This document shows, piece by piece, positions 12,653 to 51,678 of a stretch of DNA of 64,000 nt. Source of the stretch: Chryseolinea sp. H1M3-3. GTDB lineage: Bacteria > Bacteroidota > Bacteroidia > Cytophagales > Cyclobacteriaceae. The stretch lies in NCBI RefSeq assembly GCF_029360725.1, contig NZ_JARKMY010000001.1, positions 496,001-560,000 on the forward strand, read 5' to 3'. Each line of letters begins with the position of its first letter. Positions within the stretch are counted from its first letter, which is position 1. The notes below the pieces were generated by a model. It had not been told where the DNA came from, did no database searches, and saw nothing but the letters and a program-made list of their open reading frames with translations. The position numbers and the translations under genes were made by a program.

Positions 12653-12931
12653 GAGTGGATTAATTTCAGGATTAAAGGTAACCCTTCTACCATTAACGAA
12701 AACGTCTTCTTACAATTTTTCTACCGTCTGCAAAATATGATCGACCGATCCCAGTATTAGGCTCTACCTTGCGATGGTCGATTAATCAATGGATATGTCG
12801 AAATAAATTGCCGAGTTGTCTAATACGCATTATGAAGTGGCAACAAAAAAGTTTCTTTGCAGTTAAAGTTAACTGACCCATATAGTGTAACGTTAAGTGG
12901 CTTATTTTTTACTTTGTTCAATCTCAAATAA
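12653..12931. promoter_or_regulatory. Divergent promoter region between sensor kinase and receptor
   Basis: This 279-base region serves both the kinase operon (leftward) and the receptor (rightward). It contains a 7-base inverted repeat, ATCGACC at 12740-12746 and GGTCGAT at 12776-12782, with 29 bases between. TTACTTTG at 12909-12916, just before the receptor ATG, approximates the -7 element. Binding by the LytTR regulator is possible but not demonstrable from sequence. Confidence 0.35.
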
Positions 12932-29249: not shown

Positions 29250-29903
29250 ATGATCCATCCCCATACAGAGCTCCAGTTTATCAGTGAGAAAATCGGATAC
29301 GGAGTTGTCGCGACAAAGCTGATACCAAAAGGAACAATTACCTGGGCATTAGATAAACTAGATAGAATTTTTACTCCTCAACAAGTGAGGTCGATGGACC
29401 CTCTGTATCAGCAGGTGTTGGATACCTACACCTATCGTAATCCGGAAGGCAATCACATCCTCTGCTGGGACAACGCACGGTTTATTAATCATAGTTCGAA
29501 TTCAAATTGCGTAACCACAGCTTATGAATTCGAAATTGCGATCCGGGATATTTATCCTGGTGAACAGCTTACAGATGATTATGGGTACTTAAATCTCGAA
29601 GAACCCTTTGAGGTAGTGCCGGAAGAGGGGACCAACCGAACTATTATCTATCCGGATGATTTAATTCGATACTATCACATTTGGGATGACCGTCTTCTGG
29701 AAGCTTTTCCGAACCTCGTGGCGGTAGAGCAGCCGTTATTTAAGATATTGGATCCAGCTATTCGCGAAAAGACTTTACGGATTGCTGCCGGTGAAGAAAA
29801 GATGAATTCAATTCTTTCTTGTTACTATCCGGTACATGGAAAAATTAACGGTGAGGCTCAGTTTGTAAAAACGCGATCACCCAAGGTAACTTATCCCTTT
29901 TGA
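29250..29903 (+). CDS. SET-domain protein
   Basis: This 217-aa protein is counted from the ATG at 29250; the longer frame from 29205 adds a hydrophobic leader that the family lacks. The SET motifs are present in order: GYGVVATKLIPKGT near residue 19 (SET-N), RFINHSSNSNC near 77 (AdoMet-binding and pseudoknot half), and GEQLTDDYGYL near 102 with the catalytic-type tyrosine. A C-terminal region (about 115-217) lacks the CxCxxxxC post-SET zinc motif of eukaryotic enzymes. Such proteins are lysine methyltransferases in eukaryotes; bacterial members have few known substrates. It converges on the helicase gene and overlaps its 3' end by 13 bases. Confidence 0.86.
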   Translation: MIHPHTELQFISEKIGYGVVATKLIPKGTITWALDKLDRIFTPQQVRSMDPLYQQVLDTYTYRNPEGNHILCWDNARFINHSSNSNCVTTAYEFEIAIRDIYPGEQLTDDYGYLNLEEPFEVVPEEGTNRTIIYPDDLIRYYHIWDDRLLEAFPNLVAVEQPLFKILDPAIREKTLRIAAGEEKMNSILSCYYPVHGKINGEAQFVKTRSPKVTYPF

Positions 29904-32900
29904 GGGATCTGTGAACCGATAAATACCATTAATCCACTTTCAATCTTTTCGCGGTCTTTCCAGAAGTTACGGCTGTAGATCATCTGATATTTCCAATTCT
30001 TTTGTGTTAGTATGGCGGGCACATAGGCGTGGGAATGTTTAACTGACAAACTCGAATAATAACGTACGTCATCAGTTAAAATAATTCCGAGGTGCTTGTT
30101 ATCCTGAAGGACACCCACATCAGAAAACGGTAATCCGTCTGTTTGAAAGACAAACTTCGCTAATCGGTCCTCTCCCCATTTTTTTATCCGGTTACTCAGG
30201 TACCAATCTTTATTTTTTACAAAGGCTGGTTTGGTATGCAGCGTATAAGTCCCCTGGTCAACATCTTTGGCATACTGCAAATATTTCTTAAGCAGTTTTG
30301 GCCCTTCATTTTTGATACCCTGTATTTTCAATTGCTCTGGCCAAATGCTTGTAACCAAAATAATTTTTTCGCGGGCTCGTGTAACGGCCACATTTAAACG
30401 ATTTTCTCCTCCAGCAGTATTGAGACTCCCAAACTGCATTTTCATTTTTCCTTTTTTGTCTGGAGCATATCCAATTGAAAAAATGATAATATCTTTCTCA
30501 TCCCCTTGTACATTCTCAATGTTTTTCACAAACAATGAGGCTGGGATGATTTTCCCTATTCTCGTTGCCTCAGTCTCTAACAAATCCATCACCAACATTT
30601 GTTGAGTCGCATTAAACGTAACAACGCCAATTTCCTTTTCGGGATGCTGGTCTAATATCTGAAATACTTTTTCAACAATAGCTGTTGCTTCGGCAAGGTT
30701 TGTATGATCGTCCCAAACACCTTCGACCTTACAGTATTGAATCGCGGGCTCTCCCTGATTTAATATATCTCGGTGCGGCAACAATTGAAGTCTTCCCTCA
30801 TAGAAGTACTCATTTGAAAAATCAATTAGCTCCATCCGTTGGCTTCGATAATGTCCTTGCAGATGAACTGATGAAAGATACCTTTCTGATAATTCTAATA
30901 AGGACTCAACTTCAACATCGGGGTTCTCATCTTCTTCATCCCAGCGGGTCTGATACAATTCACTTGGCCGCAATTGTTTATCATCACCAGCGATGAGAAT
31001 TTGTTTCCCGCGATACATCGCAGGGATACCACGTTCTGAAAAACATTGTGACGCCTCATCAAATATCACAATGTCAAATAATTCAGTCATGGGAAAAATG
31101 GCTGACACCGACTCCGGCGAAGCCATCCAGCATGGCATCAGCTGAAACAGTTCATTGCTGAATTCAGCTATTAATTTCCGCAACGGCCAAAGTTTTTTCT
31201 TTTTTGTAACCTGGTGCTGCAGATCTCTATAGGTTATTAAATTATTTAGTCGGTTGTATTCAAGCCTGTCGTAAACAAATTCCCTTACCCGCACCAATAA
31301 AATTTCCTTACAAAGATTTTGTTTTTCGGCTACCAATTGTTGCAGTTCACGTTGCAACGTTTCCATCTTCATTGAAGATACCGAGCGGAGAATCGGATAT
31401 TTTGTTTCTATGTGGTCTATCCAGGTAAGCCGAAGACTGTTTTGGAAAACGTACTCCATTTTGTCGGCATCCCACACTTGCACGTGATCATACAACTTTC
31501 CGATAACTTCCTTTTCATGAAATAAAATAGCTTCTTTGAGTTTATCATAGTCAGCCAGATTATCGAAATCCTTTTTTAACACCTTGATAAATTCTTTCTC
31601 TAATGTTGGATCGTGTATAAGCTGACTTATCTGGTAACGTGTCAGATATTTTAACCATTCAATTTTTTTCTGAGGAATATCGTTAACAATAAAAAGCAAT
31701 CGCCTCATGAGTGAAATAAACTCTTGCCGCGAATATCTCTGCAAAATCAACGAGTCCTTTATTTCACGTAGGGTATTAAAAATTAATTTGGCGCGTGTCG
31801 CCAGCTTCTGTTTTGCAAACCATATTTCCAGCGAAGATTTTTTATAGTCAACAGGCAAATCAATAAGCCACATTTTCTTTTTTAACGCGGTAAGATGGTG
31901 CTCGAGATTTAAACGGCTGTCAATGCGTTGTTCTAAAATATCCAGCCCTATTTTGTTGTAGGCAAGGCCGTTTGCAATCAGCACACGTTTTACAAAGACT
32001 TTGTCTTTTGAGAACATTTCCCACAACAACCTTCGAAATAAATTCGTACGCGCATCCATACGATGCTGCAAAGCTTCCTGAAAAACGCCAAGTTGATTGT
32101 TGGGTAACGTAATTTCCGGATGTTCACCTTCAAAACAATTTAAGGTGACGCGCTCCATGTTCGATAGCCAAAGCAAACTCGTTTCATCATCATTCTCATC
32201 CCACATTGCCTGAAAAAAACGAAACGTCTCGTCATCCTTTAAAACGGTGATCATGCCCAGGATATCATCTTCTTTTAACGACAACGATTCACAATCCTGG
32301 AGGTTGAGACTGATGCCTAATTCCTTTTCAACGGCAGCAGCAATTTTTTGCTGATACTTTGGAATGTAGCTCAGAATTTTTTCGATTTCTTTTTCGTCCG
32401 AAGGCTGAAAGGCTGCAAAGGATTTACGTTCACGCCAAACGTAGTCTTGTCTTTCAAACATGGATGCATATTGCACATACAATTTTTGTTTGCGTAAAAA
32501 GTCATCCAGCGAAAGAAAGTTGAAGTATTGATATTCCTGTTTTATGTTGATGGTCGGATCAGCCAGTTCGGAGGTGAGATACAATTCCTTGATTGATAAA
32601 CCGCATTCCCGATCATCGAATAATGTATCCTTAAATTCTTCAAGTTCCTCAGCAATCTGATCAATCCTTCTGCAAACCTGATAGAATTTTCTTTCCGTTT
32701 GAATAACATCCACGCTACGATTAAGCGTGCGATACTCCTCAACGTGATCCACCTGGCTGGATACTTTAGAAAAAATTTCTTTTCTGTCGTTTTGAAAATC
32801 GTGAACGAGTCCCAAAAAATTACCCAATCCAATGCTGTCGAGTCTTTTGTACACCACATCCAGGGCAGCTCGTTTTTGACATACCAATAGCGCCTTCTTT

Positions 32901-33925
32901 CCAGCAGCCATCGCATCAGATAAGATATTACAAATCAACTGTGACTTACCTGTTCCCGGTGGTCCCTGCACAACAATCGAGTTTCCATTCTTTATTGTTT
33001 TGATTGCATTCTCCTGATATGCATCAACATCAAAAGGAGCAAATATCTTTTCCTCCCTGATTTTCTGATTGAGAATCGAATGATCGTCTGCTAGTCCATC
33101 TTTGCCATTAATATTTTTGGTTTGAAAGAACGTTTCCAGGTCATGGAAAGTATTACTTTCTATCAGCTGTAAATAGTCAGGAACAAGCTGCGATCCTGCT
33201 TGTGGAAAAATTCCTAGTACTGCTTCAGGGTAAAGCTTAAGTTCACCATTCCGATGCTTTTCGTCGAAAGCTTCTTTTTTAAATTCTTCGAATGGAATCA
33301 ACTCATCCCGAAAATTCTCAGCATTAAAATTAATTTCAATTTTATTTTCGAGCAGCTGATAAAGTTGGGTTCGAAAACCTGTGCTGTCTCTTTCAAAATC
33401 CTCAAAGCTTGTATCCAGCAGGTCTTCTTCCAGTTTTACTTTGTTATAAAATGAGAAAGCCAACAGGAAAGATTTGTTTAAGGTGATTCCGGCGTTCTCC
33501 CTTGCATGCAGCACCCAGTTTTGACCTTCCTGGCTAAGGCTGACCGGAAAAAAAAGCAAAGGGCACCGAACGAAGGTACCGTCAGAAAATTTACCTCGAA
33601 TGAACGGCCAGCCTACATGCAAATCATTTGACCCACGTTCTTCAAAAATAAATTTATCGAAACGCTGAAGCTTCTTTATCTTTTTGCTTGCCTCGTTATT
33701 CGCCTCTAGCCTGCTATCGAGCACCTGGCAAAGATTTTTGCTTTTCCCTGAAATGAGTGCATTAATAATCTCAAAGGATTTCTCGCCATTCAAGAAGCTC
33801 AGTTTGTGAAGATCGAACAATTGTTCAGCATGAAGCCTTAGCAGCAGTAGTGATCTGTTGTTCCCAGAAAGATTGGTAAGTCTTCGCAAATAAGTCTGCA
33901 GAATATTTTTCGATGAATCCGGCAT
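29891..33925 (-). CDS. Upf1-like superfamily 1 helicase with possible Vsr-like C-terminal domain
   Basis: This is a 1344-aa cytoplasmic protein. The N-terminal part (about 1-280) opens with LRRLTNLSGNNRSLLLLRL, resembling the DUF4011-type start of large bacterial helicases. Walker A VVQGPPGTGKSQ is near 321. A long helical insertion (about 400-850) separates it from Walker B VIFDEASQ near 955, motif III GDDKQLRPSEL, motif IV-like GHYRSQR, and motifs V/VI NVQGDEKDIIIFSIG and NVAVTRAREK. The last 100 residues (from about 1240) follow the outline of the Vsr/MTES_1575 nuclease fold (GLPFSDVGVLQDN, GIILTDDVRYYSS, KNWKYQMIYSRNFW), but with replaced acidic positions. It could be a nucleic-acid-processing or defence protein. 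No companion defence gene is adjacent. Confidence 0.85.
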   Translation of the reverse strand: MPDSSKNILQTYLRRLTNLSGNNRSLLLLRLHAEQLFDLHKLSFLNGEKSFEIINALISGKSKNLCQVLDSRLEANNEASKKIKKLQRFDKFIFEERGSNDLHVGWPFIRGKFSDGTFVRCPLLFFPVSLSQEGQNWVLHARENAGITLNKSFLLAFSFYNKVKLEEDLLDTSFEDFERDSTGFRTQLYQLLENKIEINFNAENFRDELIPFEEFKKEAFDEKHRNGELKLYPEAVLGIFPQAGSQLVPDYLQLIESNTFHDLETFFQTKNINGKDGLADDHSILNQKIREEKIFAPFDVDAYQENAIKTIKNGNSIVVQGPPGTGKSQLICNILSDAMAAGKKALLVCQKRAALDVVYKRLDSIGLGNFLGLVHDFQNDRKEIFSKVSSQVDHVEEYRTLNRSVDVIQTERKFYQVCRRIDQIAEELEEFKDTLFDDRECGLSIKELYLTSELADPTINIKQEYQYFNFLSLDDFLRKQKLYVQYASMFERQDYVWRERKSFAAFQPSDEKEIEKILSYIPKYQQKIAAAVEKELGISLNLQDCESLSLKEDDILGMITVLKDDETFRFFQAMWDENDDETSLLWLSNMERVTLNCFEGEHPEITLPNNQLGVFQEALQHRMDARTNLFRRLLWEMFSKDKVFVKRVLIANGLAYNKIGLDILEQRIDSRLNLEHHLTALKKKMWLIDLPVDYKKSSLEIWFAKQKLATRAKLIFNTLREIKDSLILQRYSRQEFISLMRRLLFIVNDIPQKKIEWLKYLTRYQISQLIHDPTLEKEFIKVLKKDFDNLADYDKLKEAILFHEKEVIGKLYDHVQVWDADKMEYVFQNSLRLTWIDHIETKYPILRSVSSMKMETLQRELQQLVAEKQNLCKEILLVRVREFVYDRLEYNRLNNLITYRDLQHQVTKKKKLWPLRKLIAEFSNELFQLMPCWMASPESVSAIFPMTELFDIVIFDEASQCFSERGIPAMYRGKQILIAGDDKQLRPSELYQTRWDEEDENPDVEVESLLELSERYLSSVHLQGHYRSQRMELIDFSNEYFYEGRLQLLPHRDILNQGEPAIQYCKVEGVWDDHTNLAEATAIVEKVFQILDQHPEKEIGVVTFNATQQMLVMDLLETEATRIGKIIPASLFVKNIENVQGDEKDIIIFSIGYAPDKKGKMKMQFGSLNTAGGENRLNVAVTRAREKIILVTSIWPEQLKIQGIKNEGPKLLKKYLQYAKDVDQGTYTLHTKPAFVKNKDWYLSNRIKKWGEDRLAKFVFQTDGLPFSDVGVLQDNKHLGIILTDDVRYYSSLSVKHSHAYVPAILTQKNWKYQMIYSRNFWKDREKIESGLMVFIGSQIPQKG

Positions 33926-33976
33926 TCAATTATAATGTAGTGGAAGTTTTATAGAGGGCCATGCTACGTTGTCCGT

Positions 33977-34897
33977 TCATAGTTCATCATCAACTTTCAA
34001 ATACGGCGTTAACTTTTGGATGATCTTTTCGTCCAACGCGTTGATGTTCCGAATTTCTGATACTGTTTTGAACGCACCATGTTGAAATCGATAAGAGACA
34101 ATTGCTTTGGCCGCTTTGCTTAAGTAGGGGTGACCAGAAAGTTCCTTCTCTGTAGCGGTGTTGATATTGATTCGCAAGGGTTGGTAATTGTATTTTATCT
34201 CTGAATTTTTCACCAAACGATTAATTATTGTTGAATCAAGACCATATACCTCCTTTAGCTGGTCCATGGCCACAAAACCTCCTAAAACATCCCGATATTT
34301 TATAATTCGCATAGAGAGTTTCTCACCAATGCCATAAATCTTCTTTAATTGTGCTGTATCTGCGCTATTTAAATCAAATTTTTCAAATGATTTTTTTATT
34401 AGCACAGCTTCTTTTTCTAAAAGCTTTTTTTCTGGTTTATAACTGCGCTCCTGCTTCTCTGGAAGGTCAATAAGGGCATATATCCTGTGATAAAACGTGG
34501 AATCAATGCCATAAATTTTCAACAGATCTGACTTTGTCCTGAATTTCCCCCCTTTTTCACGGTACCTGACAATGCGGGGGGCGAGGTTTTCAGAAAAACC
34601 AAGCTCAAGCAGGTTTTCTGTAGTGGCATTATTGGGGTTAAAATGGAAGAGCCGTTGCGTGTTTTCAGGGTTTTCATGCACATCGTTGATGGGCTTTTTA
34701 GCATCCCATAACGCCACTAGGCTATCTAAAATAACCTTGTCTTCCACCTCGTTCAAAGGTCTGTTTTTCAACCGCCAACGCCAAAAAGGTTCTGAAAATA
34801 AGAGAATAGTTGCCAGGAGCAGCAATAAAATAAATCCATTGACTTGGGATCTTGAAAACCCAAAAAAGTTCTTAATCCAATGCTTTAACCGAAACAT
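33977..34897 (-). CDS. ComEA-like helix-hairpin-helix protein with N-terminal membrane anchor
   Basis: This 306-aa protein is counted from the ATG at 34897; a GTG six codons upstream is less likely. A membrane helix (about residues 20-38, GFILLLLLATILLF) is followed by a charged linker and three helix-hairpin-helix units. The first starts near 87 (FNPNNATTENLLELGFSEN), the second near 168 (FDLNSADTAQLKKIYGIGEK) and the third near 240 (ININTATEKELSGHPYLSK). ComEA proteins bind incoming DNA in the periplasm; multi-repeat versions like this are common in Bacteroidota, where function is less clear. The gene follows the large helicase gene upstream on the same strand by 51 bases in map order. Confidence 0.88.
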   Translation of the reverse strand: MFRLKHWIKNFFGFSRSQVNGFILLLLLATILLFSEPFWRWRLKNRPLNEVEDKVILDSLVALWDAKKPINDVHENPENTQRLFHFNPNNATTENLLELGFSENLAPRIVRYREKGGKFRTKSDLLKIYGIDSTFYHRIYALIDLPEKQERSYKPEKKLLEKEAVLIKKSFEKFDLNSADTAQLKKIYGIGEKLSMRIIKYRDVLGGFVAMDQLKEVYGLDSTIINRLVKNSEIKYNYQPLRININTATEKELSGHPYLSKAAKAIVSYRFQHGAFKTVSEIRNINALDEKIIQKLTPYLKVDDEL

Positions 34898-35051
34898 AAC
34901 TAACAACGGGGCCACTAAATTGCAACTTTTTTTCTAACTCGTTCGTTTTCAAAAGCACTTTCAATGAATCAGGCTTAGGATTATGTTATTTATAAATGTT
35001 CTAAATTACAATCATTTGATTTTTGTCAGTATTTCCATCTCCTTAAGGCTT

Positions 35052-40162: not shown

Positions 40163-41701
40163 TTATTTAAGTTCGAGAACGACAACTGAAAAAGGAGGCA
40201 ATTTTCCTTTTAGGGAATTACCACTCAGTGTTATTCCTTTAAAGCCCGCCGGTTTTATCTTTTCAGGGTTTTCAAATGTATTATGGTCTTGAATTTTTGG
40301 AGAGGTTAAAATCTTAGCCGTGACGTTTGAAAATTTAGCTCCACGAAGGTCCAGCGTCACTTCCTGCTCCTTTTTGGCGTCAATATTGACCAACGAAATA
40401 TGCACAGCACCATTAGCATCACGTGACGCCGAAGCAGAGATGGCTTGTAGTTTTTCGTTGTTGAAAACATAATCAGTTGAATTAACTGTTATCGGCAGCA
40501 TGGTCGCGTCCTGATGAACATTAAACATTTCCATTACGTGATAGGTAGGTGTCACAATCATTTTCTCTTCATTGGTAAGAATTACCGCTTGAAGAACGTT
40601 GATGGTCTGCGCCAGGTTTGCCATTCTTACGCGGTCCGCATGATTGTGAAAAATATTTAAGGTAACACCTGCGATCATTGCGTCACGCATCGTATTCTGC
40701 TGGTATAAAAATCCGGGATTGGTGCCAGGCTCCACATCATACCATCCGCCCCATTCATCAACCACCAATGCTACCTTTTTTGCTGGATCATATTTATCCA
40801 TGATGTTTGAATGCTTGGTTACAAGTTCGTCCATGAGCATTGCACGCTTCATGGTTGTAAAATATTGTTCCTCTGTAAAGGTTGTAGAAGGGCCTTTTTT
40901 GTTCCAATCAATTACCGAATAGTGATGCAAGGCTACACCTTCGAGCATTTGGTGAGGTATGTCGCGCATCAAAACTTCTGTCCATTTATAGTCGCTTGAA
41001 TTTGCGCCTGAGGCAATACGAAATATCTTTTCGTCGTTCTGCCATGCAGACAAAAACGTTGCGTACTGTCGATAGACATCAGCATAATACTCAGCGCGCA
41101 TATTGCCGCCGCATCCCCACGCTTCATTACCTATGCCCCAATATTTAACTTTCCAGGGATTTGCTCTTCCGTTTTCCTTCCGTAAATCAGACATCGGGCT
41201 CTTTCCATCGAACGTTGTGTATTGAACCCAGTCGATAAACTCCTGGACTGTTCCGCTTCCCACATTGCCCGAGAGATAAGGCTCAGTTCCAATAAGCTCA
41301 CACATGTCCAGGAAATTATGGGTGCCAAAGCTGTTGTCTTCCGTTACACCTCCCCACCAGCGATTGACAATGGTAGGACGTTTTTCTTTCGGACCGACAC
41401 CATCCTTCCAATGGTAAGTGTCGGCGAAACAACCCCCTGGCCACCGCAAATTTGGAATCTTGAGTTTCTTCAATGCATCCACAACATCGTTGCGGACGCC
41501 TTTTGTATGTTTTATTTTATCATTGTCCTCGCCCACGTAAAAGCCACCATAAATGCACCTTCCCAAATGTTCCGCAAAGTGCCCATAAATGTGTTTATCG
41601 ATTTTATGTTTGCCCAGATCGGCATTCAGTACCAGCTGGTTTTGACCAAACACGGTTGAAAAACAGAAACAGAATAATAAAACTTGTAAAAGCTTTTTCA
41701 T
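40163..41701 (-). CDS. Alpha-L-arabinofuranosidase, GH51
   Basis: This 512-aa protein is counted from the ATG at 41701, which opens a signal peptide ([19 protein letters not shown]); an upstream TTG frame adds nine residues. The (beta/alpha)8 barrel carries the acid/base Glu193 in [12 protein letters not shown] and the nucleophile Glu316 in [12 protein letters not shown], both characteristic of GH51. The C-terminal beta-sandwich begins near 400 and ends VVLELK. It releases arabinose from arabinan or arabinoxylan and is exported. No SusC/SusD pair or other arabinan enzyme is adjacent, so it is not part of a visible polysaccharide utilisation locus. A dyad lies upstream at 41751-41763. Confidence 0.94.
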
Positions 41702-41854
41702 ACGATTGAATTGGGTTTGAAACGCCAATTTAAAGTTTATTATTTAAAAATGTAATAATTACACTTTTAACTTTCTCTAATTTGATGCCCGTTTATAAAT
41801 CGAAGCTTACTGTAATTATAATTCTTTACTTTCGACTTATTCTTTAAAGACAAT

Positions 41855-42352
41855 TTGCTTTTGGAGGCAACCGAAGAACAAAGATTCATTAGCCTAATCA
41901 ATGAACATCAAGGGTTAATCCATAAGGTCTGCATCATGTATGAGAATGATCCAGACATTCGAAACGATCTGTTTCAGGAAATTGTACTCCAGTTGTGGCG
42001 ATCATTCTCCACCTTCAGAGGGGAATCAAAAATATCTACCTGGATGTATCGCATCGCATTAAATACGGCGATCTCCGGAATTCGGAAACAACATCGTTTA
42101 GTAAAAACTGAGGATTTACGTGAACCGCATTTTAATATCTCAGACTACCATAATGATGATCATGAAGAGAACTTTCAAAAGTTGCAATGGGCAATCCGGC
42201 AGCTTTCGGAGATCGAGCGAGCAATGATTATGATGGCTTTAGAAGAGATACCTTATGAAGAAATTGCAGATACGATAGGTATAACACAAAATAATGTACG
42301 TGTACGGATGAACAGAATTAGGGAAAAACTAAAAAAACTTATGTGCCCATAA
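41855..42352 (+). CDS. ECF-type RNA polymerase sigma factor
   Basis: This 165-aa protein contains the sigma-2 region (about 20-90, NDLFQEIVLQLWRSFSTFRG and ISTWMYRIALNTA) and sigma-4 (about 110-163, LEEIPYEEIADTIGITQNNV). There is no in-frame ATG before conserved region 2, and a stop at 41819-41821 blocks extension, so TTG at 41855 or 41861 must be the start. It directs RNA polymerase to a small regulon. The next gene begins one base after its stop and is probably its membrane-bound partner or anti-sigma factor. No TonB-dependent receptor or FecR-type gene is adjacent. Confidence 0.9.
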   Translation: MLLEATEEQRFISLINEHQGLIHKVCIMYENDPDIRNDLFQEIVLQLWRSFSTFRGESKISTWMYRIALNTAISGIRKQHRLVKTEDLREPHFNISDYHNDDHEENFQKLQWAIRQLSEIERAMIMMALEEIPYEEIADTIGITQNNVRVRMNRIREKLKKLMCP

Positions 42353-42353
42353 C

Positions 42354-42971
42354 ATGGAATTGGAAGATTTAAAAAGCATTTGGAAAAATAGTGAGCCGTC
42401 ATTTCAGCAGAAGAATGAGCGGGAGATTGCGTTGATGTTGAAGGGAAGAAGCATGTCTATTATTGACAAATTGAAACGGAGTGTATGGTTTGATTTTGCT
42501 TTTACAATGATGGTTAGTCTCGCGCTTTTAATTTATGCAATTTCGTTAGAAGCTGGCGCGTTAAAGAAAGCCTCAATTGCGCTGCTGCTTATGTGCCTGA
42601 CGTATACGATTTATTACATTAAAAAATTGCTGTTATTAAATCGATTCAAGGCTGGTAATGAAAATCTGCACGACACTATTTCGTTATTGATTAAGAATCT
42701 CACCGGCTATCTAAAATTCTACAAGAACAGTTATGCTATTTTATATCCCGTTTATTTCGTGTTAGGATTGCTATTCGCAGCGTTGGAGCGAGGACCTGAG
42801 CGGTATATGGAATTTATTTCAGATCCTCGAATCATCTTTTACCTCTTGCTGGCTGCTGCGCTTTTCTTTTTCCTCAGTACCTGGTTGGTGAATTGGTATC
42901 TTAAAAAGTTATATGGAAATCATTTAGACAAACTAAAAAATTTATTGCATGAACTGGGCGGCAATGCTTAA
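42354..42971 (+). CDS. Four-helix membrane protein, probable sigma-factor partner
   Basis: This 205-aa protein begins one base after the sigma-factor stop. A charged N-terminal part (about 1-45, LEDLKSIWKNSEPSF) could dock the sigma factor in the cytoplasm. Four hydrophobic segments follow (about 46-64, 70-90, 122-145 and 158-180). The order matches the Bacteroidota pairing of an ECF sigma factor with a small polytopic partner thought to act as anti-sigma factor, but no zinc-binding anti-sigma motif is visible. It overlaps the convergent hydrolase gene by 4 bases at its 3' end. Confidence 0.72.
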   Translation: MELEDLKSIWKNSEPSFQQKNEREIALMLKGRSMSIIDKLKRSVWFDFAFTMMVSLALLIYAISLEAGALKKASIALLLMCLTYTIYYIKKLLLLNRFKAGNENLHDTISLLIKNLTGYLKFYKNSYAILYPVYFVLGLLFAALERGPERYMEFISDPRIIFYLLLAAALFFFLSTWLVNWYLKKLYGNHLDKLKNLLHELGGNA

Positions 42972-43654
42972 CCTTCACCATACAATACATCCACCAGCGC
43001 TTGTTTTAATGCAATGGAAATCATCTCCCACTTTTCGGTTCCAATGTATTTTTGATTTACTTCAATTTCAATTCCCAAATACTCCTCATCGGCGAACTTC
43101 GTACGAAGGTAAGTGGTAAATCCGTCATCCGTTCCTTTATATGGTTCATTGAACCTGATGTTAAGGAAGGGAAGATGTTGCTCAAGACTATCAGATAACT
43201 TATCGCAAAAATTAAGTTCTCCTTTTCGTTCTGGGTCAAATAGAAGGCCGATGTCAACTTCCCTGATAATGTTATTCAGCTCGGGAGTAAACGTGTGAAT
43301 TGAAAGATGCAACGCCGGTTTGGCGGCTTTACCTATTATTTCTTCAACACTATTTCTATGCGGATAATAATATTGTTCAAGAATAACATCGTGTTCTGTT
43401 TCGAAGAGCTTTTGAGAATATTCCGAGTAAAGCTGATGGCTATCAAGCGATCGATTGGGCTCAATCAATAACCTGGTAGTTTCACACGTAAAAAGCGGCG
43501 CACTGAATTCAGTGGCCAGGAATTTGGCAATTTCCACTGCGCCCGGGTCCCATCCGCGATGTGAATTCAATACTTCTTCCGCTTTTGTGAAGAGATGTGT
43601 ATAACACGCGGGCACTTGATTTCCTGCATGCTCACAGGTGATGACGAGATTCAT
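42968..43654 (-). CDS. N-formylglutamate amidohydrolase-like metallohydrolase
   Basis: This 228-aa protein has the family's features: an N-terminal ITCEHAGNQVP with a likely metal-binding Glu/His, HRGWDPGAVEIA near 33, LIEPNRSLDS near 63 and LHLSIHTFTPELN near 115. It resembles the DUF/NFGAH fold of zinc-dependent amidohydrolases rather than a confirmed formylglutamate enzyme. It is the last gene of the peptide-ligase unit read leftward from 47980, 95 bases after the GCS2 gene. In this setting it may remove a formyl or acyl group from, or cleave an amide in, the peptide product. Confidence 0.84.
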   Translation of the reverse strand: MNLVITCEHAGNQVPACYTHLFTKAEEVLNSHRGWDPGAVEIAKFLATEFSAPLFTCETTRLLIEPNRSLDSHQLYSEYSQKLFETEHDVILEQYYYPHRNSVEEIIGKAAKPALHLSIHTFTPELNNIIREVDIGLLFDPERKGELNFCDKLSDSLEQHLPFLNIRFNEPYKGTDDGFTTYLRTKFADEEYLGIEIEVNQKYIGTEKWEMISIALKQALVDVLYGEG

Positions 43655-43749
43655 TGCTTTAAATGATAATAGCTGCTAGGAGTTGAATTGGTTTTTTGAC
43701 AGAACCCGAGTTAACTGTTTTCCAGTTTTTACACAATAGCATGGATGCC

Positions 43750-44988
43750 TTAAAACATTTTATTTTCGGATAGGCATACCGATAATTGCTTATACACCTC
43801 GACAATGTTCTCCTTCGATTGCGCTTTGCCCATGGCCTGAACAATCCTATATGCCAGCGTTCCCTGCTGCAAAATCACTTTTAATGATATCCGGGTTCTT
43901 TCAATAGCGGGATTTCCCTTGTTTAACAGCGTTGTAAAAATGTGTTGCCACAACTCACCGGCTAATGCTTTCTTCCCTGGGAAATTAAATATATTCAAGT
44001 AATCGGAATTGTCTATTACTGTTTGCTGCGCCTGGACTATCGTCTGATCAAAAATTTGTGCCAGCGCTTCAGTTTTCCACTTCATTTGTGCCTCAAGGCT
44101 GGTAAAAAAATTTTCAGTCAGTGCTTTGATTGTTTCAATAACTAAGGTGAGAACTGCAATATCCGCCGCCGGGCATTCCTGGATATCCATGACCCTGATT
44201 TCGATAGACCCCCTATCAAAACGTGGAATGGCGCCGCGCGAATTAACCCATATGGCATTCAACTCTTCACCCGGGTCATAAGGGGCAATATCCGACTTAA
44301 TTTTTTCGTAAATCGTGTTTAGATAATTGCGCTTTGAAAAAACTGCTTCAGGAATTACTTTGCCAGTGATGGATGGAATTTTTGCCTGGTTGGTTTTGTA
44401 ATATTTCAATCGTGTATCCAGCAGACCAGTTACTTTCCCATCTAAAATCGGAGAACTGGCGCATAAAGCGGGCAGTATAGGCAATACTAACCTGATGGCT
44501 GCATGCAACTTTGCAAACTCTTCATCGTCGTAGAATGGCAAATTCAGATGGGTGCTCTGCAAATTAGACCAACCATGTCCGCGGCAATCGAAAATCTTAT
44601 TATAAATGGCATACACTTCATTGTTTTCGTGCGGCCACAGTTTTGTTTCACTCGCGGGTTCCATAAATGGATGCGCTGCTGTCGGCAGAAGCATGGCATT
44701 CCATTTTAATAAGATTGAGTTTATTCTTTTAACGTTCTCCGCGAACTTGATTTCCAAAGCTGCTAAATCATGCTCAGGTTTAGTAGATTTTAATTCCACA
44801 ACATGAAGCACCAATTCGTTTGACCACGTTACAATCCCATTTTCAAAATCGCCACCGTATTCCCCAAGTTCGTGTTTCAACAATTCATCTGTGATCGGTT
44901 TGATCTGCAATGTATCGCGATCGACCAGCATGTATTCAAGCTCAACACCATAGCCTTGAAATAAATGGATCCGGGGAGGCTGTGTCAT
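43750..44988 (-). CDS. GCS2-family amino-acid ligase of the amidoligase operon
   Basis: This 412-aa protein has the glutamate-cysteine-ligase fold. The nucleotide/metal motif GYGVELEYMLVD begins near residue 12, followed by NLQSTHLNLPFYDD near 154, GLLDTRLKYYK near 192 and RGSIEIRVMDIQECPAADIA near 258. These are the acidic and histidine residues expected for an active ligase. The sequence differs clearly from the GCS2 ligase at 21721-22866, so the two are not recent duplicates. Its ATG overlaps the stop of the ATP-grasp gene by one base, so expression is coupled. It likely adds an amino acid to an acid or peptide made by the ATP-grasp enzyme; the substrate is unknown. Confidence 0.88.
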   Translation of the reverse strand: MTQPPRIHLFQGYGVELEYMLVDRDTLQIKPITDELLKHELGEYGGDFENGIVTWSNELVLHVVELKSTKPEHDLAALEIKFAENVKRINSILLKWNAMLLPTAAHPFMEPASETKLWPHENNEVYAIYNKIFDCRGHGWSNLQSTHLNLPFYDDEEFAKLHAAIRLVLPILPALCASSPILDGKVTGLLDTRLKYYKTNQAKIPSITGKVIPEAVFSKRNYLNTIYEKIKSDIAPYDPGEELNAIWVNSRGAIPRFDRGSIEIRVMDIQECPAADIAVLTLVIETIKALTENFFTSLEAQMKWKTEALAQIFDQTIVQAQQTVIDNSDYLNIFNFPGKKALAGELWQHIFTTLLNKGNPAIERTRISLKVILQQGTLAYRIVQAMGKAQSKENIVEVYKQLSVCLSENKMF

Positions 44989-46433
44989 TATTTGTCAGCT
45001 TTTATTCTATTTAAAAACACTTCCATGATGACGGAGTATAATTTGTCCTTCATGATCTTATCTTCAATGCCCGCATCTATATTGGGATTGTCGTTGATTT
45101 CTATCACATAGAATTTTCCATCCACTTCCTTCATGTCTACGCCATACAATCCTTGCCCGATCAGTGCTGTCGCTTCCAGGGCAGTGGAAATCAGTTCAGC
45201 TGGTGCCTGGTAAAAGGCTACGCATTCCACGGCACCCTCCTGTTGTTGTTTATCAGAACTCCAGTTCACAATTTGCCAATGTTCCGAAGCCATAAAATAC
45301 TTACAAACAAACAATGGTTTTCCATCCAGTATTCCGACCCGCCAATCGAAGGCAGTAGGCAGAAATTCTTGCGCAATGAGCAACTCAGATTTCTGAAACA
45401 TGGTTCCGCATGCTTGTTTAAATTCCTCTGCATCTTTGATTTTAAAAACGCCTTTACTAAAAGCACCGTCAGGTTGTTTAAGGATGAAAGGATAGGCTAA
45501 CTTCTTTGGCAAATTTTTATAGTTGTCCTTGCTAATGACGTAAGATACCGGTGTAAGAATTTTGTTAGCAGTCAACAATTCATTTAAGTAAATCTTATTC
45601 GTGCATTTTAAAATAGAGTCAGGATCATCAATAACAACCATTCCGAGTGACTGCGCCTTTTTTGCAAACCGGAAGGTGTGATGGTTCACAAAGGTTGTTT
45701 CCCGGATGAACAATGCATCATACTGAATCAATTCATCAAAATCTTCTTTCGTAATGAGTTCAACATAAAACCCGGCCTGATCACCAGCCTTGATAAATTT
45801 TTGCAGGGCTTTCTCGTCAGAGGGAGGATTAGGGTCATCGGGATCGACGAGAATCGCCAGATCATATTTCTTTTTATCAGGTCGGACATCCCGCTTGCGC
45901 TGCAGGTATTTTTCTACCGCCGTTCGAAGTAAAGTCATTTCTTCCTCGGGTACTTCGCCAAAGCTTAGCGGCTTTATGCTTTGTAACACCCATTTACTCC
46001 GTTTAGTAAACGTAACACTGAGAGATGGCGCTGGAATATACTGGAAGAGCTGCTTGGCGAGTTTGTTAAGGTTTTCTTCCTGTGTAATACCAAAGTAGAT
46101 ATCAAATTCAACCTTGTCCTGCGTAACGTTCTTGAATGAATTTTGGATCAGGTCATCAAAATCCTGGAAGTCTTCCCTCAGGATAGAGGGGAACCTGAGA
46201 TCCTGAATGGTAGAAATGCCGGGCAGAACTTTGTGCTTGCGCGCTTCTGCCAACAGCGAAACGTAGTATCCGATACTTTGATATTGGTACGACTTGCACA
46301 GGTTGATCACTTTGATGCCCTTTGTTTCCGGATATGCTTCACCGGAGATGTATTTAGCGGGTGTAATAACTTCTACATCAGCCAGGTTGAACTGCCAGTG
46401 GTCTGGATTCTCAACTATGATTAGCTTTGGCAT
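44988..46433 (-). CDS. RimK-like ATP-grasp ligase with N-terminal RLAN-like extension
   Basis: This 481-aa protein has an alpha/beta N-terminal part (about 1-165) of the type called RLAN (RimK-like ATP-grasp N-terminal) and a linker with a basic stretch (RKRDVRPDKKKYD near 200). The C-terminal ATP-grasp domain (about 275-478) has PFILKQPDGAFSKGV near 310, FLPTAFDWRVGIL near 355 and the metal-binding FYVIEINDNPNID near 441. ATP-grasp ligases join a carboxylate to an amine through an acyl phosphate. It lies between a cysteine peptidase gene (23-base overlap upstream) and the GCS2 ligase gene (one-base overlap downstream), which is the strongest argument for a joint pathway. Confidence 0.9.
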   Translation of the reverse strand: MPKLIIVENPDHWQFNLADVEVITPAKYISGEAYPETKGIKVINLCKSYQYQSIGYYVSLLAEARKHKVLPGISTIQDLRFPSILREDFQDFDDLIQNSFKNVTQDKVEFDIYFGITQEENLNKLAKQLFQYIPAPSLSVTFTKRSKWVLQSIKPLSFGEVPEEEMTLLRTAVEKYLQRKRDVRPDKKKYDLAILVDPDDPNPPSDEKALQKFIKAGDQAGFYVELITKEDFDELIQYDALFIRETTFVNHHTFRFAKKAQSLGMVVIDDPDSILKCTNKIYLNELLTANKILTPVSYVISKDNYKNLPKKLAYPFILKQPDGAFSKGVFKIKDAEEFKQACGTMFQKSELLIAQEFLPTAFDWRVGILDGKPLFVCKYFMASEHWQIVNWSSDKQQQEGAVECVAFYQAPAELISTALEATALIGQGLYGVDMKEVDGKFYVIEINDNPNIDAGIEDKIMKDKLYSVIMEVFLNRIKADK

Positions 46434-47154
46434 TTGCCTTTTTTTCTTTTGGTTCTATAATTAACAAATTCGCGTCATGGGTAACGATGCCAAGCATGAT
46501 ACTATTGATGAGGCGTGCAAAACTTACACTATATACTTTGCCTTGGCCGAGTGGATTCGGTTCATTCGGATCAGTAATATGAACGCATTTCTTTTCTTCG
46601 TCAAACCCCGTGATAACTACAAAGTGTCCCGTAGGTTCTCCCTTTATGCTATCATAAATATCAAATTGGGGGATTTCGCGCGCGGAGCCATACAGGTAAG
46701 TGGCACTTAACCCTGTAACAATAGGAGTCGATTGTTTCAAATATTTTTTAATGAGAGACTCGTCCAATTCTTCGTGAAGCACCTCGCCTCCAAGCTGAAG
46801 AAATTTGATGTAAGCCTGTGAAGCGATCTTTAACTTACGACGTTTGTGCTTAAACTCCATTTGGTCACGAAGAAACTGGATCATCTTCTTGGATGAATGC
46901 TTAAACCATGTTGGATCAAATACGTGTAGGTTATACGTATAGATTCTGGCTTTATAACCTCGCTTCAAGGCATGATTACCCAGCATTACTGCCAGCGTAC
47001 CCCCCAATTTTAATTGTTTCACTTCCTGAATTACTTCTTTCAGCGGAACAACATCCCCATAATAACTATACAACGCCTGCAAACATGTAGGCCCACAGGT
47101 TACATCATCGGGCTGTGCCTGAATATCAAAATCCAGTGCGAGATCCTTCTTCAT
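46411..47154 (-). CDS. C39-like (papain-fold) cysteine peptidase
   Basis: This 247-aa protein carries AQPDDVTCGPTCLQALYSYY at 13-32 with the likely nucleophile Cys20 and a preceding Gln for the oxyanion hole (Gln14 by position). The histidine is in PTGHFVVITGF near 180-190, followed by the aspartate in ITDPNEPNPL. There is no signal peptide, no ABC transporter fusion and no double-glycine leader nearby, so it is not a bacteriocin exporter protease. It probably acts in the cytoplasm on the product of the ligases, or transfers a peptide. Its 3' end overlaps the ATP-grasp gene by 23 bases. Confidence 0.88.
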   Translation of the reverse strand: MKKDLALDFDIQAQPDDVTCGPTCLQALYSYYGDVVPLKEVIQEVKQLKLGGTLAVMLGNHALKRGYKARIYTYNLHVFDPTWFKHSSKKMIQFLRDQMEFKHKRRKLKIASQAYIKFLQLGGEVLHEELDESLIKKYLKQSTPIVTGLSATYLYGSAREIPQFDIYDSIKGEPTGHFVVITGFDEEKKCVHITDPNEPNPLGQGKVYSVSFARLINSIMLGIVTHDANLLIIEPKEKKANAKANHS

Positions 47155-47188
47155 GCGAGGCAGGTGCCCTCCTTCCGTACAATCATTC

Positions 47189-47980
47189 TTATGTTAAAAG
47201 TTTGGTAAGAAATAGGTCTACAATTTCTACCAAAATTAAAACGATAATAATTAACTCCAACAAGCTGCTCTCACGTTGGTTAATAATCTCACGAAAGATG
47301 GAGAGATTGTCTTTAATGATCTTTAAAGTGTATTCAATTTCGCTAAACCGAACCCGCAAATCAAAGTGTTTCATAAATCCCTGGTAGAGTTTGTCAAGAA
47401 ATTCATCATCCCATACCTGGTCGGGCGCATCGAAAATATAAATATTCTCTGCAATGTCGTTTTGAGTGTTTAATGCCCTTCCTAAAAATCGCATCATATT
47501 TTTGCGGCTGATTTTGAGTTTGCCTGTCAATTCCAATTGTGTAGCAAAACTCTTTAATTCTGTCAGCAAGTTTTCCGTCACATCATGATAATGATCTAGT
47601 GCTACGGATTGTCCCAGGATAAACATCGCGATTCTTAAAACTTTATTATCAATTTTATCTAAGATCAATTCGTCAAAGTTAAAGATCATGTCACTTCCCT
47701 CCATAACACGAATCTCGTGGTCATCACGAAGCCATGTGGAAAATGGATTTCGTTGATAGGCCTGAACGGCTTTGACCGCCCACTTCATTTCATCCTCCGA
47801 GTAACCAGCAAAAACAATCACACCATAATTGAAAAAGTACTGATATTTATCTTTACCAAAAACATAAAATAATTCGGAGGATGAATCGGCTTCGGGTTTG
47901 ATATCTAGGAATGCTTTAATGCCTTTTATGTCTAGTTGATTGGCGACCAGGAATGCGGATAGTTTAACCGTTTGTGTCAT
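47189..47980 (-). CDS. RMD1/DUF155 family membrane-anchored protein
   Basis: This 263-aa protein matches the DUF155 (RMD1/Sif2) layout: a mixed alpha/beta N-domain (YVFGKDKYQYFFNYGVIVFAG near 40, a typical family strand), an acidic helical middle with ILGQSVALDHYHD near 120, and a C-terminal membrane helix (about 240-260, LLELIIIVLILVEIVDLFL). Fungal members localise to mitochondria or membranes with unknown activity. Here it is the first gene of the same-strand run, 34 bases before the C39 peptidase gene. This placement may tie the peptide product to the inner membrane; the link is inferred from proximity. Confidence 0.86.
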   Translation of the reverse strand: MTQTVKLSAFLVANQLDIKGIKAFLDIKPEADSSSELFYVFGKDKYQYFFNYGVIVFAGYSEDEMKWAVKAVQAYQRNPFSTWLRDDHEIRVMEGSDMIFNFDELILDKIDNKVLRIAMFILGQSVALDHYHDVTENLLTELKSFATQLELTGKLKISRKNMMRFLGRALNTQNDIAENIYIFDAPDQVWDDEFLDKLYQGFMKHFDLRVRFSEIEYTLKIIKDNLSIFREIINQRESSLLELIIIVLILVEIVDLFLTKLLT

Positions 47981-48928: not shown

Positions 48929-51652
48929 CTACTTGACAGGATACTCAAAATGATACGTACCCGATCCCAGCTTTAGCTTTACATCCTGCCCGATCGTACT
49001 CACTTCTTTGATCACTTTTACTTTGCTAATGTCAATGTATCGCTCTGTAATTTTCCTGGATGCGGCGTTTGGCAAAATCACCTGCGCCGATGTATTCACA
49101 GGGATCACCACATCCAGTTTAAATATATCGTCCTCAATAGTCCATGACGATTTTACCTGGCCATAAACTGTTGTGAGCTCAGCGGACGCCCGCGTTAACT
49201 TTCCGCCTGGCTTGGGTGCAATCATTAATTCCTTATATCCTGGCGAGACTTCTTTAAGCCCCGTTATCGTACGATACATCCAATCGCCAATAGCGCCATA
49301 AGCATAGTGATTAAAGGAGTTCATTCCTGGCGTTTGAAAGGTGCTGTCCGTCTTAATACCATCCCACCGTTCCCAGATTGTTGTAGCTCCCATCTTAACG
49401 GGGTATAGCCATGAAGGATATGTTTCTTGCAGCAATAAAGTATAGGCCAAGTCATTATGCCCAAACCTTGTCAGTACTTCGCATAAGTAGGGAGTACCTA
49501 AAAAACCAGTAGTCAGGTGGTTGCCATAGTCCTTGATATTTTGCGCCAACCGATCTGCGGACTGAGCACGCAGGTTCTCGGGTAACATATCAAACTGCAG
49601 TGCTAAGACATAGGCGGTTTGTGTACTGGAAACCAATCGGCCACTGGCAGTCATGTATTCGCGAGCAAAGGCGTCTTTAATTTTCTTCAATGAATTGGTG
49701 TAGTGACTGACATCATCTTTTTTATTGAGGACAGAAGCAGTGTTGATCATTAGCTGGGTCGAATGGGCCCAAAAGCACTGTGCGATCAGATACTTGTCGG
49801 TTACCGCTGCCCGCCCATCGTTATCATCTAGCGGCCGGTAAAAAAGCCAGTCACCAAAATGAAACCCAGTGTTCCACAAATCATTGATAGCAGTTTTTTC
49901 AATGTAGCCAACCCAGGCTTTCATACTTTCATATTGTTGCTCAAGGATTCTTTTATCACCATAAGCCATGTACATATTCCAGGGAATAATCGTTGCGGCA
50001 TCCGCCCAGCCCGCCGAGGCCGACGCGTTTTTTCCCAATACATTTGGGATAACAAATGGCACTCGCCCATCCTCTACCTGATCAGCGCTGAGGTCCTTTA
50101 ACCATTTACCGAAAAAAGCAGCAACATCCATGTTATATGCGGCGGTTCTTGAAAATGCCTGAGCATCACCAGTCCAGCCTAAACGTTCATCGCGTTGAGG
50201 ACAGTCGGTTGGCACATCAACGAAGTTGCCTTTTTGTCCCCATAGGATATTGTGCTGGAGTTGGTTAAGGAGCGCATTGGATGTGGAGAACTTTCCCGTT
50301 GTTTTCATATCCGAATACAACGCTATGGCTATAATATTTTCAGGTTTTAATTCTCCCGGAAAGCCTTTTACACGTACGTACCTGAATCCGAAGAAACTAA
50401 ACCTTGGCTCATAAATCTCCTGGCCTGATCCTTTTAACGTGTACAGGATTTCCTGGTCAGCCGCCCGCAGATTTTCTGTATAAAAGTTTCCATCCTTATC
50501 CAGTACTTCCGCATGATGAATGGTGACTTGTGTTCCCGCACTGCCCGTGACTTTTAAGTTTATCCAACCCACCAGATTTTGGCCAAAATCGACAATAGTT
50601 TCGCCGCTAGCGGTCTTGGATATTTTAACGGGCTTAAAGGTTTCTTGCTTGCGCACGGGTGGCCCGTAAGAAGCCACAAGATTCTTCTTACTTTCAGCCA
50701 AAACTCTTACAGGCTTCCACTCGGTATCATTAAAACCCGCGTGTACCCACTCCGGTATTTCCAGACGGGCGTCATAAGCTTCACCATAATAAATCCCAGA
50801 TTTCGTGATAGCACCTGTCGAACATTTCCAACCCTCGTTGGAAATAACGGACTCTTTTGTACCATCGGAATATATAATTTCTAATTGAAATAGGACCGCG
50901 AGATTCTTGCCATAAATATTTGTGTTATTTTCCCATGCCAGATGCCCCCGATACCAACCATCCCCTAACATCACACCTGCAGCATTGACACCTTGTTTCA
51001 ATAGCGGGGTGACATCATAAGTCTGATACTGAAGCCGCTTGTTATAACTAGTCCAACCGGGTGATAGATATTGATCACCCACCCGCTGTCCGTTGAGATG
51101 CGCTTCGTACAAGCCATGGGCAGTGATGTACAACCTGGCCGAACGGACATTCTTTTTAAGATCAAAATTGCTGCGCAGCATTGGCGAGGGTCTTCCGACA
51201 CTGTCGCCGGGAATATTAGGCTCAATCCAGGAGGCGGTCCAATCATCAGATTTTAACAAACCCATCTCCCAATATTTTATCTCACTCCAACGTGAAACCA
51301 CATTGGTATTATCGGCAATCTTTACTTGCCAGTAATATCGTTGCCGTGAAGTTAACGGTGGCCCTGCATAAGGAACACTTACGGATTGATCAGAAGAAAC
51401 TATTCCGGAATGCCATAGGATATTTTGTCCTTTTGCTAAAGCTGCTTGATCCAGCCCTACTCTGAGCTCATAACTTTTTTGTGTTATAGCCCTTTGACCT
51501 GTAATGAGCTTCCAACTGAATCGTGGGGTCTCGATATCAATTCCTATGGGGTTATCCTGATATTCACACGTCAATTCCTGAACCTGAAGTTTTTGGGCAA
51601 AACTCATGACTGACATTACCAGAAGACTCAATACAAGCGTGGATATTTTCAT
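48929..51652 (-). CDS. Alpha-L-rhamnosidase, GH78
   Basis: This 907-aa protein is counted from the ATG at 51652, opening a signal peptide (MKISTLVLSLLVMSVMSFAQ); an upstream frame to 51676 adds eight residues. The N-terminal Ig-like and Bac_rhamnosid_N beta domains (about 25-350) are followed by the (alpha/alpha)6 catalytic barrel (about 440-800) with the family block DVPTDCPQRDERLGWTGD near 480 and GDWLFYRPLDDND near 610. A C-terminal beta domain (about 800-905) ends YHFEYPVK. It removes terminal rhamnose from rhamnogalacturonan, flavonoid glycosides or bacterial glycans, outside the inner membrane. A perfect 16-base dyad sits 11 bases upstream of its start. Confidence 0.95.
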   Translation of the reverse strand: MKISTLVLSLLVMSVMSFAQKLQVQELTCEYQDNPIGIDIETPRFSWKLITGQRAITQKSYELRVGLDQAALAKGQNILWHSGIVSSDQSVSVPYAGPPLTSRQRYYWQVKIADNTNVVSRWSEIKYWEMGLLKSDDWTASWIEPNIPGDSVGRPSPMLRSNFDLKKNVRSARLYITAHGLYEAHLNGQRVGDQYLSPGWTSYNKRLQYQTYDVTPLLKQGVNAAGVMLGDGWYRGHLAWENNTNIYGKNLAVLFQLEIIYSDGTKESVISNEGWKCSTGAITKSGIYYGEAYDARLEIPEWVHAGFNDTEWKPVRVLAESKKNLVASYGPPVRKQETFKPVKISKTASGETIVDFGQNLVGWINLKVTGSAGTQVTIHHAEVLDKDGNFYTENLRAADQEILYTLKGSGQEIYEPRFSFFGFRYVRVKGFPGELKPENIIAIALYSDMKTTGKFSTSNALLNQLQHNILWGQKGNFVDVPTDCPQRDERLGWTGDAQAFSRTAAYNMDVAAFFGKWLKDLSADQVEDGRVPFVIPNVLGKNASASAGWADAATIIPWNMYMAYGDKRILEQQYESMKAWVGYIEKTAINDLWNTGFHFGDWLFYRPLDDNDGRAAVTDKYLIAQCFWAHSTQLMINTASVLNKKDDVSHYTNSLKKIKDAFAREYMTASGRLVSSTQTAYVLALQFDMLPENLRAQSADRLAQNIKDYGNHLTTGFLGTPYLCEVLTRFGHNDLAYTLLLQETYPSWLYPVKMGATTIWERWDGIKTDSTFQTPGMNSFNHYAYGAIGDWMYRTITGLKEVSPGYKELMIAPKPGGKLTRASAELTTVYGQVKSSWTIEDDIFKLDVVIPVNTSAQVILPNAASRKITERYIDISKVKVIKEVSTIGQDVKLKLGSGTYHFEYPVK

Positions 51653-51662
51653 ACTGAAAGTC

Positions 51663-51678
51663 ATTTGAAAATTCAAAT
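51663..51678 (-). promoter_or_regulatory. Dyad upstream of the GH78 gene
   Basis: ATTTGAAAATTCAAAT is a perfect 7-2-7 inverted repeat placed 11 bases before the rhamnosidase ATG on the minus strand. It could be an operator or a translation-masking hairpin. Confidence 0.4.

Follow-up and report, generated by a model that had tools for sequence, protein, structure and literature searches.

Operons in which an RLAN domain sits on a RimK-like ATP-grasp enzyme, together with other amidoligases and peptidases, were reportedly predicted to be peptide-metabolite operons by Iyer, Abhiman, Maxwell Burroughs and Aravind in 2009. We take the RLAN family, which is already a Pfam family, to go back to that amidoligase survey, and the locus considered here presumably has a core of the class predicted there. 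It lies in a window of 64,000 nucleotides (the whole stretch of DNA analyzed; contig NZ_JARKMY010000001.1, positions 496,001 to 560,000) of Chryseolinea sp. H1M3-3, whose nearest named relative is Chryseolinea serpens (RLAN ligase 81% identical). The locus is a minus-strand run of five same-strand open reading frames (ORFs), each starting with ATG, from 47980 to 42968, which encode a DUF155 (RMD1/RMND1-like) protein of 263 amino acids (47189..47980), a C39-like cysteine peptidase of 247 amino acids (46411..47154), a 481-residue ligase in which an RLAN domain (residues 27-171) is fused to a RimK/LysX-like ATP-grasp domain (44988..46433), a 412-residue carboxylate-amine ligase of glutamate-cysteine ligase family 2 (GCS2; 43750..44988), and a 228-residue hydrolase of the N-formylglutamate amidohydrolase fold (FGase; 42968..43654). 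The central three genes overlap by 23 bases and by 1 base, and the spacers to the outer two measure 34 and 95 bases. In a Pfam scan, all five proteins passed the gathering scores of their families (PF02582, 105.9 bits, cut-off 27; PF13529/PF03412, with Peptidase_C39_2 at 47.1 bits, cut-off 24; PF14401, 152.3 bits, cut-off 25, and PF08443, RimK, 30.5 bits, cut-off 21; PF04107, 86.3 bits, cut-off 21; PF05013, 71.4 bits, cut-off 28.9). These are the families to which an earlier inspection of the letters and ORFs (the sequence-only reading) had assigned them, and our ORF calls reproduced every coordinate, overlap, and gap given there. Our analyses show that the locus represents a real, widespread pathway of the predicted kind, which follows a clean logic of two forms and has DUF155 as an unexpected partner.

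Among described systems, glutathione synthesis likewise combines a glutamate-amine ligase with an ATP-grasp ligase, but it involves no RLAN domain, C39, or FGase, and the window proteins score far below the known models (the best two glutamate-cysteine ligase/YbdK models of NCBIfam gave 53.4 bits with GCS2, against cut-offs of 371 and 176.4). In the pathway of N-acetylglutaminylglutamine amide (NAGGN), which comprises Ngg, AsnO, and a glutamyl aminopeptidase, one protein makes both the acyl cap and the amide, Ngg N-acetylating one glutamine and joining it to a second, and the operon includes a peptidase (PMC8070244). The plan of Ngg in that account (PMC8070244) is shared by GNAT-RLAN fusions found in relatives of our locus, whereas the window has GCS2 instead of GNAT, and the NAGGN synthetase model TIGR03103 is absent from the matches of its ligase; among the fusion proteins scanned, only a GNAT-C39 protein (L064) matched this model, with 38.1 of the 569 bits needed. 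RimK-RimB and RloABC of Pseudomonas also combine an ATP-grasp ligase with a protease, although the proteases are retropepsin-like, not C39, and the available text of that source mentions neither GCS2 nor FGase (PMC12239564). For other ATP-grasp families, consecutive action of linked ligases, or acyl capping by a GNAT, has been reported (PMC4431377).

The core of the locus, C39-RLAN/ATP-grasp-GCS2(-FGase), is a real unit. We typed loci with our own domain models, counting GNAT, C39, and GCS2 up to 2.5 kb from RLAN and FGase and DUF155 up to 4.5 kb. RLAN is present in 35/296 genomes drawn from the window phylum (the broad GTDB phylum Bacteroidota, the window genome itself being among the 35), in 72/398 Pseudomonadota (draw centered on Thiobacillus thioparus), in 4/148 Desulfobacterota (centered on Desulfosediminicola), and in 28/119 planctomycete genomes (centered on a Phycisphaerales metagenome-assembled genome, MAG). 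The draws provided 141 loci, after four planctomycete-draw genomes with weak partial RLAN matches only (G986, G1037, G1085, and G1090) had been left out, made up of 35 from the window phylum, 75 from Pseudomonadota, 4 extras from the window order, 4 of 5 from Desulfobacterota, and 23 from planctomycetes; the fifth Desulfobacterota locus and the planctomycete center (L129 and L130) were placed in a second set of 80 named loci. These are the best 80 of more than 589 relatives, retrieved with a query of mostly GCS2-type ligases and hence biased to the GCS2 form; they were kept apart from the 141, and at least three (L087, L096, and L109) repeat draw genomes. Across all 121 GCS2-type loci (51 of the 141 and 70 of the 80), the order C39, RLAN, GCS2, FGase is kept on one strand, members being sometimes missing but never reordered. 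The GCS2-type named loci carry 13 NCBI phylum labels, most being MAGs of which single labels may be wrong. Because this order recurs in distant genomes, the operon is more than a chance arrangement. A profile of the GCS2 subfamily, made from RLAN-linked loci and leaving more distant GCS2 enzymes uncounted, was found (E<=1e-10) in 24/296 window-phylum genomes, and these are the same 24 that have a GCS2-type RLAN locus, so that the core stays together when its homologues are followed from genome to genome. One GCS2 gene (L031, 7270-8489 of the locus, genome G179) is split over two frames and is either broken or affected by a sequencing error. We rejected a phage origin, RLAN being found in 0/50,697 phage records (E 1e-20). 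It occurred in 11/72,556 plasmid records (E 1e-30), one of them 4.9 Mb long; seven of these records are from Azospirillum and one each from Legionella, Tistrella, Pseudomonas, and Aeromonas. This pathway is strongly conserved across Bacteroidota, Planctomycetota, Pseudomonadota, and other phyla, so that it may yield a metabolite or modification that is common but has gone unseen. No experimental work on the RLAN-GCS2/GNAT pathway was found among the matches listed from the open-access literature searched, and in this respect the description of the operon as an undescribed system stood, although it was too strong, RLAN being a Pfam family and such operons having reportedly been predicted in 2009.

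The RLAN loci exist in two forms, with either GCS2 or a GNAT acetyltransferase. The 141 draw loci divide into 51 with GCS2, 87 with GNAT (fused or nearby), 3 with neither (one, L185, cut by a contig end), and none with both. In the window phylum the 35 loci comprise 24 GCS2 and 11 GNAT, with no case of both, and all four order extras are GCS2; the Pseudomonadota draw (75 loci) has 72 GNAT and a single GCS2 locus, L157, which is the draw center and was picked for having that form. With the named locus included in each case, there are 3 GCS2 and 2 GNAT among 5 Desulfobacterota loci and 21 GCS2 and 2 GNAT among 24 planctomycete loci. The named set, with the bias stated above, holds 70 GCS2, 3 GNAT, and 6 neither, plus one with both (L104, the GNAT lying 2 kb off), and genome G423 has both forms at separate places (L129 and L222). 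On a FastTree phylogeny of 217 RLAN proteins, from which L064, L248, L249, and L250 were left out for low RLAN scores, the GCS2/GNAT label takes 2 changes when 9 rows with neither are excluded, and the forms look like two deep ligase lineages, each occurring in several phyla. Within the ligase, 51 positions exceed 97% conservation in each of the two forms, and no residue conserved above 85% in one form (120 GCS2-type and 88 GNAT-type rows) is replaced by a different residue above 85% in the other. Because no residue separates the two types, the same RLAN reaction is to be expected in both, and we infer from these alignments that GCS2 and GNAT would be alternative capping enzymes. Some loci of the GNAT form have GNAT fused to RLAN-ATP-grasp; for three such fusions and one GNAT-C39 fusion, the best acetyltransferase model was rimI, with 47.4 to 76.7 bits, all below the cut-off of 86.4.

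The hydrolases are distributed differently over the two forms, C39 being present in 46/51 GCS2 and 55/87 GNAT draw loci and FGase in 36/51 GCS2 and 0/87 GNAT draw loci; in L101, a named locus, C39 and FGase occur although no GCS2 was recognized there. On the ligase tree, 29 changes are required to explain the FGase label, so this gene comes and goes. From this co-occurrence, C39 probably acts on what both forms share and FGase on what GCS2 alone adds. The catalytic residues of both enzymes are intact. The C39 active site (Q14, C20, H177, and D195 in the window protein) has Q and C in 170/172 aligned domains (2 gaps), H in 172/172, and D in 158/172 with E in the other 14/172, and the FGase residues E8, H9, H32, D36, H116, and H120, which we take to include the metal site, are present in 63/63 aligned proteins. 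The FGase profile matches the structure 2odf (E 2.6e-38), and its window protein has no NCBIfam match.

Our analyses also identified DUF155 as a facultative but real neighbor of both forms. It lies near 19 of the 141 draw loci (6/51 GCS2, 12/87 GNAT, and 1/3 neither). Among 138 genomes of the window order, RLAN is in 8, DUF155 in 21, and both in 6 (Fisher p 1.4e-4, leaving aside G417, with RLAN below cut-off and internal stops, and G323, with DUF155 below cut-off), and in 6/6 genomes with both, the starts of the two genes are at most 4.5 kb apart. Among the 398 Pseudomonadota, RLAN is in 72, DUF155 in 38, and both in 21 (p 4.5e-8), with starts 1.6 to 4.0 kb apart in 13/21, at 190 kb and 2.1 Mb in 2, and on different contigs in 6; both p values overstate the link, the genomes being related. 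The DUF155 label takes 11 changes on the RLAN tree, and the gene stands in varied positions and orientations. Six of six neighbors checked pass the Pfam cut-off, one of them (L108) being about 6 kb from RLAN, past the 4.5 kb gate, and so uncounted. Candidate calls in L126 (Acidobacteriota) and L239 (planctomycete draw) were rejected, with 89.5 and 95.7 bits to our own model against at least 263 elsewhere; no Pfam family matches the L126 protein, a PF02582 search of that genome gave nothing, and the L239 candidate was dropped on score alone. One further DUF155, in L079 of the named set and thus outside the 141, was kept by hand (109 bits, with a masked stretch). The idea that all five genes form one unit therefore holds for the core, DUF155 being outside it, though linked in several lineages, and FGase being optional. 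The RMND1 family is familiar from mitochondrial disease in humans, and we know of no biochemical activity for it; the link with RLAN provides it with concrete bacterial gene partners, of which we found none in the open-access literature searched. The same literature, among the matches listed, yielded no paper on the GCS2/GNAT swap, the FGase-GCS2 tie, or the DUF155 link. The AlphaFold2 (AF2) model of the window DUF155 (mean predicted local distance difference test score, pLDDT, 85.1) has a helix from 208 to 262, and its C-terminal helix is hydrophobic in the alignment; a fold search with it gave no Protein Data Bank (PDB) match at E<=0.001, and weak TBP-like and CorA/MRS2-like matches were not used. 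Human RMND1 has a coiled coil followed by a transmembrane helix at its C terminus and is part of a mitochondrial inner-membrane complex, and it has been proposed to act as a ribosome tether (PMC7564844). It is conceivable, though we hold it to be a long shot, that bacterial DUF155/RMND1 proteins act at the membrane as partners of a switchable amidoligase, which attaches a peptide with an acetyl or gamma-glutamyl cap to a translation component or makes a ligand for that component, and that mitochondrial RMND1 derives from such a setting; if so, a human disease gene would gain a biochemical partner to look for.

The catalytic residues of both ligases are in place. K280, K319, D433, E445, and N447 of the RLAN ligase, each of which we take to bind ATP or Mg, are conserved above 97% in the 120 GCS2-type and 88 GNAT-type rows, with the lysines and the E-x-N motif aligning with LysX and RimK, so that loss of ATP-binding residues does not count against the operon. 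GCS2, which aligns with plant glutamate-cysteine ligase and with YbdK, has the E-x-E motif, presumably a metal ligand, in 90/90 aligned proteins (E16 and E18). Together with the conserved gene order, these intact residues support the proposal that two carbon-nitrogen ligases and two hydrolases work as a functional unit. On the model of glutathione or NAGGN synthesis, the operon may be a cytosolic pathway that makes and dismantles a small N-capped (gamma-glutamyl or acetyl) dipeptide-like amide, a reading to which we give an even chance of being right. GCS2 would link an amine on a substrate X to the gamma-carboxyl group of glutamate or a comparable acid, and the RLAN/ATP-grasp ligase would couple a carboxylate of X with another amine, Y, or would make X-Y first, the cap following afterwards; in the sister form, the cap would be added by GNAT from acetyl-CoA in place of GCS2. 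Because C39 occurs in both forms and FGase is seen only with GCS2, C39 would most likely cut or transfer at the RLAN-made bond and FGase would most likely hydrolyze at the glutamyl end, and DUF155 may be a membrane-anchored accessory in some lineages. Within this scheme, we infer the small-molecule substrate, the order of steps, the cut sites, and the membrane anchoring. The GCS2/GNAT swap thus suggests the bond formed by each enzyme and the site at which each hydrolase acts, making the steps separately testable. The physiological role may be that of an osmolyte, a store, or a redox buffer. In L104, an MscS-family mechanosensitive channel gene lies directly 3' of GCS2 (11715-15233 of the locus), a single case that would suit an osmolyte.

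Several observations weigh against a small capped metabolite. The GCS2/GNAT label needs only 2 changes and largely follows phylum, so that only a small number of independent events underlies the exclusion of one partner by the other and the tie of FGase to GCS2. C39 is not near RLAN in 32/87 GNAT loci and FGase is missing from 15/51 GCS2 loci which, with the 29 changes of the FGase label, indicates that neither hydrolase is essential. Known families do not fix the substrates, because no NCBIfam cut-off was reached by any of the window's five proteins, including 0/9 matching models for GCS2 and 0/22 for the ligase. LysX/ArgX and RimK are among the close folds of the ligase, which makes a protein substrate possible, and the tie of DUF155/RMND1 to human mitochondrial ribosomes (PMC7564844) hints at translation. 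The sequence-only reading had allowed for a capped peptide or a protein tag as the product. A capped peptide is plausible, but a tag or carrier encoded beside the operon is argued against, because among 1,226 short ORFs flanking the loci no cluster was found in more than 4 loci by BLAST, a method that can overlook peptides that are very short or evolve quickly; a tag encoded elsewhere in the genome is possible and would also speak against a small metabolite.

A protein as the target is a less likely but serious alternative. On this account, the ligase would add amino acids to a protein (e.g. a ribosomal one, as RimK does on S6), GCS2 or GNAT would cap them, C39 and FGase would remove them, and DUF155 would keep these enzymes at the membrane or close to ribosomes. 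LysX/ArgX act on a carrier protein, and the window ligase is RimK/LysX-like. Its AF2 model (mean pLDDT 84.3), in the best 50 of 1,154 Foldseek matches, found D-Ala-D-Ala ligases first by E-value (TM-score by target mostly 0.71-0.75) and, by TM-score, LysX/ArgX at up to 0.84 and RimK at 0.73-0.76. On the other hand, the RimK alpha-L-glutamate ligase model TIGR00768 (rimK_fam) gave 62 bits against a cut-off of 143.4, and the GCS2 and FGase families are known for free amino-acid substrates. The choice of rimI as the best acetyltransferase model for GNAT fusions, though below its cut-off, fits a protein target, as does the link of DUF155 to both forms given the ribosome tether proposed for human RMND1 (PMC7564844). 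RimK, moreover, forms with RimB a known pair of ligase and protease (PMC12239564). The occurrence of RLAN in only 35/296 and 72/398 genomes would, however, be odd for a housekeeping modification of ribosomes, and DUF155 accompanies only 19/141 draw loci.

A small capped amide is also preferred to a glutathione-like thiol, in which GCS2 would make gamma-glutamylcysteine or an analogue, the ATP-grasp enzyme would add the next residue like glutathione synthetase, and C39 would act like phytochelatin synthase. This reading is unlikely. GCS2 aligns with plant glutamate-cysteine ligase, as noted above, the ATP-grasp enzyme aligns weakly with glutathione synthetase, and a papain-fold peptidase with two ligases presumably mirrors the glutathione/phytochelatin set, but the matching glutamate-cysteine ligase and glutathione synthase models stay far below their cut-offs, and the GNAT form does without a nearby GCS2. 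The bacillithiol enzyme BshC is encoded in 24/24 GCS2-type window-phylum genomes, and in 18/24 a separate protein matches GSH-S_ATP above the Pfam cut-off (two with E <1e-50, most others 1e-17 to 1e-23), so other thiol routes are likely present, and the operon product as the sole thiol of these cells was rejected as unlikely. Nine of the 24 genomes (G022, G104, G108, G119, G171, G203, G211, G235, and G266) carry bshC and a GSH-S_ATP-like ATP-grasp gene on one contig, at a distance of 10 to 17 kb. Least probable is a system for a ribosomally synthesized and post-translationally modified peptide (RiPP) or another secreted peptide, the leader of which C39 would remove: in profile searches C39 hits the peptidase domains of ComA/PCAT, and ATP-grasp ligases reportedly make graspetides (PMC8939145), but the Pfam scan found no ABC transporter domain fused to the window C39 or in any of the five operon proteins (only C39-like models passing in the 247-residue protein), and the flanking short ORFs offered no common family, with the proviso that BLAST can miss short, fast-changing precursors.

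Around the operon, a search with a Bacteroidetes promoter consensus gave 0 matches in the window against 4.1 expected; sigma-70-like sites (16 versus 14.4 in shuffles) and terminators (4 versus 4.9) were not above chance, and an Rfam search gave no match. A divergent S1/P1 nuclease gene lies upstream of the operon. Downstream and pointing toward the operon end are the genes of an extracytoplasmic function (ECF) sigma factor and of a 205-residue protein with no Pfam match (41855-42971, plus strand); relatives of both adjoin the operon in two genomes of the same family (L056 and L058), and in L203 an ECF sigma factor gene is likewise found upstream of a GNAT-C39/RLAN pair. The operon region is flanked on one side by an arabinofuranosidase gene (40163-41728, minus strand) and on the other by a large gene that we take to be rhamnosidase-like (48929-51676, minus strand). 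About 18 kb from the operon, the window encodes an asparagine synthase with a glutamine amidotransferase domain (22946-24853, plus strand); in the NAGGN pathway, AsnO carries out the amidation. The window also contains genes for a helix-hairpin-helix protein and a 1344-residue AAA_11/AAA_12 protein (29891-34915, minus strand), whose relatives (47% and 52% identical) lie directly 3' of FGase in L068, as do genes of these two clusters in L071 and L072.

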